The notes under the pieces are model-generated. The model did not search any database. It was not told the DNA's origin and was given only the letters and a program-made list of their open reading frames with translations. From Candidatus Absconditabacteria bacterium (GTDB lineage: Bacteria > Patescibacteriota > Gracilibacteria > Absconditabacterales > Absconditicoccaceae): a stretch of DNA of 64,000 nt. Positions 32,193 to 33,690 of this stretch are shown in pieces. Made by a program: the position numbers and the translations under genes. The stretch covers positions 186,001-250,000 of the forward strand of contig JAQUVI010000001.1 of NCBI GenBank assembly GCA_028693445.1. The letters are read 5' to 3'. Numbering within the stretch: the first letter of the stretch is position 1; each line of letters starts with the position of its first letter.

Positions 32193-33690
32193 TTTTTTGA
32201 AGAGTTTGACCCTGGCTCAGGATGAACGCTAGCGGAACGCCTAACACATGCAAGTCGAACGAGAGTTATTTTGTAGCAATACAAGATAATAAAAGTGGCA
32301 AACGAGCGAGTAACACGTACTTAACCTACCCAGAAGTTGAGGCCAACTACAGAGATGTAGCTAATCCTCAATAGTATCTAAGTGACGAAATTAGCTTAGA
32401 TTAAAGATTTATCGCTTTTGGAGGGGGGTGCGTCCTATCAGGTTGTTGGTGAGGTAACGGCTCACCAAGCCTATGACGGGTAGCCGGTCTGAGATGATGT
32501 CCGGCCGCGATGGGACTGAGATACGGCCCATACTCCTACGGGAGGCAGCAGTGGGGAATCTTGCACAATGGGCGAAAGCCTGATGCAGCGATTCCGCGTG
32601 GAGGATGACGCATTACGGTGTGTAAACTCCTTTTCTGGTGGAAGACGAATGACGGTACACCAGGAATAAGGGACGGCTAACTACGTGCCAGCAGCCGCGG
32701 TAATACGTAGGTCCCAAGCGTTATCCGGATTTACTGGGCGTAAAGCGTCTGTAGCCTGATATGTAAGTCTGTTTTCAAATACCTGGACTCAATCGAGGGA
32801 AGGGGATAGATACTGCATATCTAGAGATATTTGGGGGTTAGTGGAATTTCCGGTGGAGCGGTGAAATGCGTTGATATCGGAAAGAACGCCAAAAGCGAAA
32901 GCAGCTAACTACAATACATCTGACGGTGAGAGACGAAAGTTTGGGTAGCAAACGGGATTAGATACCCCGGTAGTCCAAACCTTAAATTATGCTTGCTAGG
33001 TGTTTAGATCCTTCGGGATCTGAGTGCCGTAATCTAACGAGTTAAGCAAGCCGCCTGGGTAGTATATTCGCAAGAATGAAACTCAAAGGGATAGGCGGGG
33101 GAACACACAAGCAGTGGATTGTCTAGATTAATTGGATAAAAAGCCAAGAATCTTACCTAGGATTGACATGCAATGTGTCATATATGAAAGTATATTATTT
33201 GTAGCAATACGAAACTTTGCACAGGTGGTGCATGGTCGTCGTCAGCTCGTGCCGCAAGGTGTCTAGTTAAGTCTAGTAACGAGCGCAACCCTCGTCTTTA
33301 GTTAGAATGTCTAAAGAGACTGCCTGGGTAACCAGGAGGAAGGAGAGGATGACGTCAGATCCTCATGCCCCTTACACCTAGGGCTTCATAGACAATACAA
33401 TGGGTAGTAACAACGAGAAGCAATACCGCGAGGTGGAGCAAATCTTTAAACCTACCCCTAGTTCGGATTGTAGTCTGGAACTCGACTACATGAAGTTGGA
33501 ATTGCTAGTAATGGCGAATCAGCTATGTCGCCGTGAATACGTCCCTGTTCCTTGCACTCACCGCCCGTCAAACCATGGGAGCTGAGGTTCTTTGAAGATT
33601 CGCTATGCGGATTAAGGAGGAAATTAGTGACTGGGGTTAAGTCGTAACAAGGTATCCCTACGGGAACGTGGGGATAGACCACCACCCTAA
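32193..33690 (+). rRNA. rrs: 16S ribosomal RNA with altered 3' tail
   Basis: About 1.5 kb, with AGAGTTTGACCCTGGCTCAG near the 5' end, GTGCCAGCAGCCGCGG at 32687 and GATACCCCGGTAGTCC near 32961. The usual 900-region reads AAACTCAAAGGGATAGG. Helix 45 is intact: ATCCCTACG, loop GGAA, CGTGGGGAT (nine pairs). After it, instead of a tail with CACCTCC, the sequence is AGACCACCACCCTAA, so the anti-Shine-Dalgarno core CCUCC is missing. The gene lies downstream of 23S and 5S, unlike the usual order. Confidence 0.97.

Follow-up and report, generated by a model that had tools for sequence, protein, structure and literature searches.

Few bacterial sequences are as conserved as the anti-Shine-Dalgarno (anti-SD) sequence of 16S rRNA, which nearly all bacteria use for finding gene starts. 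Lineages that have lost it are a natural test of how the 30S subunit finds starts without pairing. Genomes without an anti-SD have been described from Flavobacteria, Carsonella, Hodgkinia and haemotropic Mycoplasma (Lim 2012, PMC3522020; Amin 2018, PMC6107228). In these genomes, as in the one described here, loss of the core always goes together with loss of the SD, and no matched variant SD is found. Most come from reduced symbionts or from Flavobacteria whose leaders are rich in A, whereas the signal found here is U-rich and lies at -22. A-rich determinants have been reported for SD-less initiation in Flavobacterium johnsoniae (Baez 2019, PMC6847099). This species shares with the present genome the lack of an SD, upstream AT-rich determinants and a preference for A at -3, but its A-rich stretch lies at -14 to -11 and its anti-SD is retained, while here the stretch is U-rich, spans -24 to -13 and accompanies a lost anti-SD.

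An AT-rich bias at -20 to -10 has been noted in SD-poor phyla, with leaderless promoters and S1 sites left unseparated as its source (Nakagawa 2017, PMC5397173). The same article cites work on U-rich enhancers of translation in E. coli that depend on S1 (Boni 1991; Komarova 2005). As cited there, these enhancers resemble the element described below in being U-rich, single-stranded and located ≈11 nt upstream of the SD location; they assist an SD, whereas the present element occurs throughout the genome at a modal position and is not accompanied by one. Earlier cases, including SD-less organisms that keep their anti-SD, have thus offered either A-rich leaders or no signal at all, with no way of telling whether promoters or S1 underlie the bias at -20 to -10.

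Within the genus studied here, SR1 RAAC1 is already listed among SD-scarce organisms without CCUCC, with 2% SD (Estrada 2024, PMC10783764, Table 4). The combination of CCUCC loss and SD scarcity is therefore published at the genus level (RAAC1_SR1_1), and our genome shows the same loss and the same scarcity. It falls into category iv of these authors (SD-scarce and CCUCC-less; Lim, Amin and Estrada), as the core is absent, SD motifs are unenriched and there is no variant SD. That table contains no replacement signal, family tail gradient or order of events, all three of which are treated here. As far as we could find, the positioned U-tract, the operon and tRNA controls, the re-tuned gene spacing and the tail gradient are additions of this analysis; a literature search, largely without subscription journals and hence weak evidence of novelty, found no earlier description of a U-rich signal at gene starts for these phyla.

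The window analyzed (64,000 nt) covers positions 186001–250000 of a 445-kb contig from a genome of 1.17 Mb with 29% GC, of which about 5.6 kb are N. By its 16S the genome falls, with support 100, into one family clade together with its congener RAAC1_SR1_1 (CP006913.1), within Absconditabacterales, candidate division SR1. Gene coverage was 0.81 with genetic code 25 vs 0.15 with code 11, showing that UGA is read as glycine, and a tRNA with anticodon UCA is present (labelled SeC by ARAGORN).

Loss of the Anti-SD Core From the 16S rRNA Tail

The 16S rRNA gene is full length by cmscan (Table 1) and was the single 16S match in the whole genome. The initial annotation had described helix 45 as perfectly paired, the CCUCC core as missing and the 3' end as not misassembled, and each of these points was borne out. 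All nine of the nine helix 45 pairs are formed and RNA folding predicts the same structure. Aligned on this helix, the E. coli tail GGAUCACCUCCUUA corresponds to AGACCACCACCCUAA here, so that the core CCUCC has become CCACC (U1537A). An alternative mature 3' end carrying CCUCC can be rejected: a scan of positions 33601–34000 found no CCTCC, and since a putative processing stem brackets the gene, a mature 3' end inside the 16S precursor cannot carry the core. The rRNA genes lie in the order 23S-5S-16S (28983–33689) with the 16S rRNA gene last, the usual order being 16S-23S-5S.

Table 1. Positions in the window of the rRNA genes, the 16S 3' end and examples of the U-rich element.
Feature	Positions	Strand	Basis or remark
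23S rRNA gene	28983..31917	+	RF02541, 2486 bits
5S rRNA gene	32025..32141	+	RF00001, 70.4 bits
Putative 16S precursor processing stem, 5' arm	32161..32191	+	Inverted repeat, 31 nt, 87% complementary
16S rRNA gene, sole genome copy	32194..33689	+	cmscan RF00177, 1369.4 bits, model 1-1533
Helix 45, stem ATCCCTACG / CGTGGGGAT, GGAA loop	33654..33675	+	Sequence reading and RNA fold
16S 3' tail AGACCACCACCCTAA, without CCUCC	33676..33690	+	Sequence; same tail in L011/L123 (RAAC1_SR1_1) and L027/L115
Anti-SD core site (E. coli 1535-1539), here CCACC; U1537A at 33684	33682..33686	+	Helix 45 positional alignment
Putative 16S precursor processing stem, 3' arm	33732..33762	+	Inverted repeat, 31 nt, 87% complementary
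UUUUAU, -22..-17 of ORF at 33840	33818..33823	+	198-aa frame; inorganic pyrophosphatase-like by eye
UUUUAU, -22..-17 of ORF starting 40504	40482..40487	+	Sequence
UUUUAU, -23..-18 of ORF starting 44536	44513..44518	+	ORF enolase-like by eye
UUUUAU, -22..-17 of ORF starting 54298	54276..54281	+	ORF phosphoglycerate mutase-like by eye
UUUUAU, -20..-15 of ORF 61929-63560	63575..63580	-	Sequence

The genome is a draft of 11 contigs with 6% estimated contamination, which leaves room for a sequencing or assembly error at the 16S 3' end or for a pseudogene copy. We nevertheless give this explanation practically no credence. The gene is single copy with an intact precursor stem, a degraded core is common to about 25 relatives, and the identical tail occurs in two congeners (G043 and G044), including the complete chromosome of RAAC1_SR1_1 (CP006913.1), so the tail is not an error of sequencing or assembly.

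Tails Across the Family, the Class and Other Bacteria

Comparison with other genomes of the lineage, as proposed in the initial annotation, showed that beyond the two congeners with the same tail, the tail is degraded in nearly all of the family members sampled and only one keeps CCUCC. At 26 further family loci the tails read CACCTCCC (the one genome with the core kept), CACCTCTC, CATCTCTC, CACCTTTC, CACCTTTG, CACTTCCC, CATTATCC, CACTATCC, CACCATTC, CACCACTC, CACCATCA, TACCATTC and TACCATCC. Judged from these tails, loss of the anti-SD core is a trait of the lineage. In a 16S tree of 57 rows the CCUCC-keeping genome (L003) is placed in an early-branching clade, and the base at 1537 changes three times over the whole tree, so that few changes are needed for U1537A. 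Most tails in the rest of the class carry CCUCC or UCUCC; those of f14 read GGACTATCTCC.

When 84,980 species genomes were scanned for a base other than T at the position of 1537, 37 stretches were returned, most of them from this family and from a second group within Gracilibacteria, whose tails contain ACCGCC or ATCGCC. The tails of this second group (f7; L100, L103, L106, L109, L114, L120, L124 and L174) carry U1537G, apparently an independent change of the core. Three isolated cases (L097 4455-4500, L105 2990-3035 and L117) are the altered tails of a Nealsonbacteria MAG (GGATCATTACATTTT), a MAG labelled Rickettsia typhi (GGATTATTAATAAC) and Gracilibacteria McD1.9 (GGACCACCCCTTAAC), which could be either true losses or assembly ends. 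The tails of a Halomonas MAG (CACCCTCC) and of Nostoc 106C (CACCACC) are one base off the canonical sequence (L110 802-850; L121 463-510), and these differences are likely sequencing errors.

Absence of SD Use and of a Re-matched SD

Genes were called with a simple code-25 ORF caller that takes the first in-frame ATG, which gave 793 to 868 genes with some wrong starts. The SD4 motifs (GGAG, GAGG, and AGGA) were counted at -20 to -4 and farther upstream, with 150 kb of E. coli run through the same caller as a positive control. In E. coli SD4 motifs were found at 48.3% near the start vs 9.5% farther upstream, and the mean duplex energy of upstream regions with the tail was -4.97 vs -3.21 for shuffles, which shows that the test works. 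In our genome the motifs are depleted before starts, at 2.1% vs 5.3% farther upstream. The reading of the initial annotation, a missing anti-SD core together with genes that have no SD, is supported. Its statement that nearly all start codons in the window have only A/T-rich sequence upstream and no AGGAGG-like motif holds genome-wide for the motif; the "only A/T-rich" part has to be amended, as this sequence holds a positioned U-rich element.

The tail remains rich in C and does not differ among three congeners, as it would be if the 16S CCACC had been re-coded to pair with a GGUGG-type SD in a natural orthogonal ribosome. The GGGUGG-type complements envisaged in the initial annotation are lacking, however: both GGTGG and GGGTG are found before 0 of 793 genes at -20 to -4, and the mean duplex energy of upstream regions with the genome's own tail is 0.56, vs 0.59 when shuffled. 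Energies with the canonical tail were likewise equal to those of shuffled controls. Moreover, tails vary among the genera while the U-tract is constant. A GGUGG-type SD was therefore rejected as exceedingly improbable, and the changed core reflects loss of the SD/anti-SD pair, not its re-coding.

Avoidance of the SD extends beyond loss of the anti-SD, since the class member G135 (200 kb profiled) has an intact CCUCC and SD4 motifs at 4.3% near starts vs 15.9% farther away. SD disuse is thus probably older than the loss of the anti-SD.

A U-Rich Element Upstream of Start Codons

Base frequencies upstream of starts have a T peak of 0.59–0.66 at -22 to -19, where G is at 0.03–0.05. T exceeds A strongly only at -24 to -13, and A is dominant at -47 to -25 and again at -11 to -3, with A-rich positions at -11, -10 and -5 to -3. 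An A-rich determinant at -14 to -11 of the kind seen in Flavobacteria does not fit this profile, as T (0.47–0.49) is above A (0.35–0.38) at -14 to -12 and the sequence there is A-rich only at -11 and -10. An EM search returned the motif tTTTATtt with a modal start at -22 in 65–78% of genes, which corresponds to a consensus tUUUUAuu starting ≈22 nt upstream of the AUG in roughly two thirds of the genes. Counted directly as TTTA flanked by T and starting within -26 to -17, the element precedes 511 of 793 genes (64%), vs 30 of 705 internal Met codons (4.3%) and 5% of E. coli genes. The exact word is absent from about a third of the genes and is not obligatory as defined. Judged by its sequence and position, the U-rich word is apparently a replacement start signal, and it could serve gene finders as a usable start signal in code-25 genomes.

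Relatives were sampled at 150–200 kb each. All five of the family genomes examined carry the element (0.47–0.66), including the CCUCC-keeping G034 (0.56), while its frequency was 0.08 (background) in G135, 0.05 in E. coli and 0.03–0.15 in control windows of the same size. G135, a class outgroup with a canonical tail, thus lacks the element and does not use the SD either. The f7 group, represented by G066, has no SD use and a weak U-tract (0.18). EM searches failed to settle on a positioned motif in G001 (141 genes) and G034 (93 genes), whereas the direct count did show the element.

G is depleted over the entire -24 to -1 region, and reduced structure near starts is general (Nakagawa 2017, PMC5397173). 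Starts might accordingly be found through low structure alone, with no dedicated signal and a composition that only reflects avoidance of G in an AT-rich genome. We find this unlikely. The excess of T over A is confined to -24 to -13 in register with the AUG and is flanked by A-dominant stretches; low structure would not by itself give a word that is asymmetric between strands, has a modal position and is matched by the spacing of genes in operons; and internal ATGs, both in-frame and out-of-frame, are without the word.

Association With Protein Starts Rather Than Promoters

The same AT-rich bias at -20 to -10 in SD-poor phyla has been read as a sign of leaderless transcripts or of S1 sites (PMC5397173). 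Leaderless mRNAs require no anti-SD, and the U-tract might be a -10 box in the promoters of transcripts that are leaderless or nearly so, with ribosomes loading directly on their 5'-terminal AUGs. A box of this kind should be absent before genes inside operons, yet divergent first genes and genes within operons share both the word and its position. The element precedes 62% of divergent genes, and for same-strand genes 52% of those at ≤15 nt from the preceding gene (p=6.5e-25), 67% at 16–40 nt and 67% at >40 nt. It is also found before internal genes of the atp (ATP synthase) and spc (ribosomal-protein) operons, both recognized by eye from N-terminal sequences, but before only 2 of 36 tRNA genes. 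The consensus TTTTAT is furthermore a T run and not TAnnnT. Leaderless initiation from a -10 box consequently seems an improbable explanation. Because the element lies before internal operon genes and is lacking before tRNA genes, it would act at translation and not as a promoter; in this genome the two gene classes separate the readings that could not be told apart before, and they favour a translation signal. That the U-tract is tied to protein starts and not to transcription is well supported by its distribution among gene classes.

Distances between genes on the same strand have a sharp mode at 20–29 nt in this genome, with local maxima at 21 and 24 nt, whereas -4 to 14 nt is usual for operons. 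Its congeners also peak at 20–29 nt, compared with -5 to 14 nt in E. coli and the class members G135 and G066. It is as if the element must fit in after the preceding stop codon.

Candidate Reader and Proposed Order of Events

The genome encodes a bS1 of 433 aa that matches TIGR00717 over positions 16–358, scoring under the curated cut-off of this family, as do the proteins of all class members. Pfam recognizes three S1 domains individually, and the TIGR match extends over a fourth at the N-terminal side. The domains correspond to the four N-terminal positions of the E. coli protein and are followed by a lysine/glutamate-rich tail. According to the account in Nakagawa 2017 (PMC5397173), E. coli S1 prefers U-rich RNA and contacts the mRNA ≈11 nt upstream of the SD, a contact site that fits an element at -22. 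The genome thus combines a bS1 of several S1 domains with a U-rich element at the S1 position of 64% of 793 genes, as S1-dependent U-rich initiation would have it, and bS1 is the likely reader of the U-tract. As bS1 also occurs in class members without the U-tract, its presence does not in itself mark it as the reader.

The U-tract might instead pair with an A-rich single-stranded stretch of 16S rRNA. AUAAAA occurs at 33136–33141 (helix 31 region) and at 32289–32294 of the genome's own 16S rRNA gene. Both stretches are found only in its own sequence (4% of family members), whereas the U-tract is conserved in the family, so pairing at these sites is not supported and we regard it as very unlikely.

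Returning to bS1, start selection by the 30S subunit in this lineage would no longer depend on SD:anti-SD pairing. The U-rich element would be single-stranded and bound by bS1 on the 30S platform, a G-poor, A/U-rich and unstructured stretch would separate it from the AUG, and the mRNA would be held with the AUG in the P site. The remaining steps of initiation may be carried out by IF3, which like KsgA is encoded in the genome, and the initiator tRNA. As for the order of events, SD motifs would have fallen out of use first, the U-rich element would then have taken over or strengthened recruitment of the mRNA, and the anti-SD core, relieved of its function, would have drifted (here by U1537A). 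The element in the CCUCC-keeping G034 would place the U-tract before decay of the anti-SD; this order draws on one such relative and one class outgroup at genome scale, and we put it forward as an inference. The graded decay of the anti-SD within the family makes it testable.

We consider the model as a whole, in which no SD:anti-SD selection takes place, the U-rich element recruits the mRNA via bS1 and the anti-SD has since drifted, to be reasonably probable. More tentatively, and with slightly more doubt than confidence, the entire order may have exchanged RNA:RNA start selection for a protein-read UUUUA(U) ≈20 nt upstream, with gene spacing re-tuned to 20–29 nt and the switch made before the anti-SD decayed, as the CCUCC-keeper suggests.

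Other Ligands of the 16S Tail

In other bacteria the 16S 3' tail is also touched by the ribosomal protein S21. Era touches it as well (PMC10582724). The 20 family members shown had no match to S21 (PF01165) and none is among the 36 matched genomes, although a divergent short S21 may escape this search. A retained anti-SD sequestered by bS21, as in Flavobacteria, does not apply here, CCUCC being absent and the listed family members having no S21 match. Full-length Era was found in f14, f21, f23, and f3, and the family of this genome (f1) has only partial GTPase-domain matches that look EngA/Der-like. Absence of both S21 and Era would lower the constraint on the 16S tail. Loss of Era as the sole cause was rejected, as many class members without a full-length Era match keep CCUCC.
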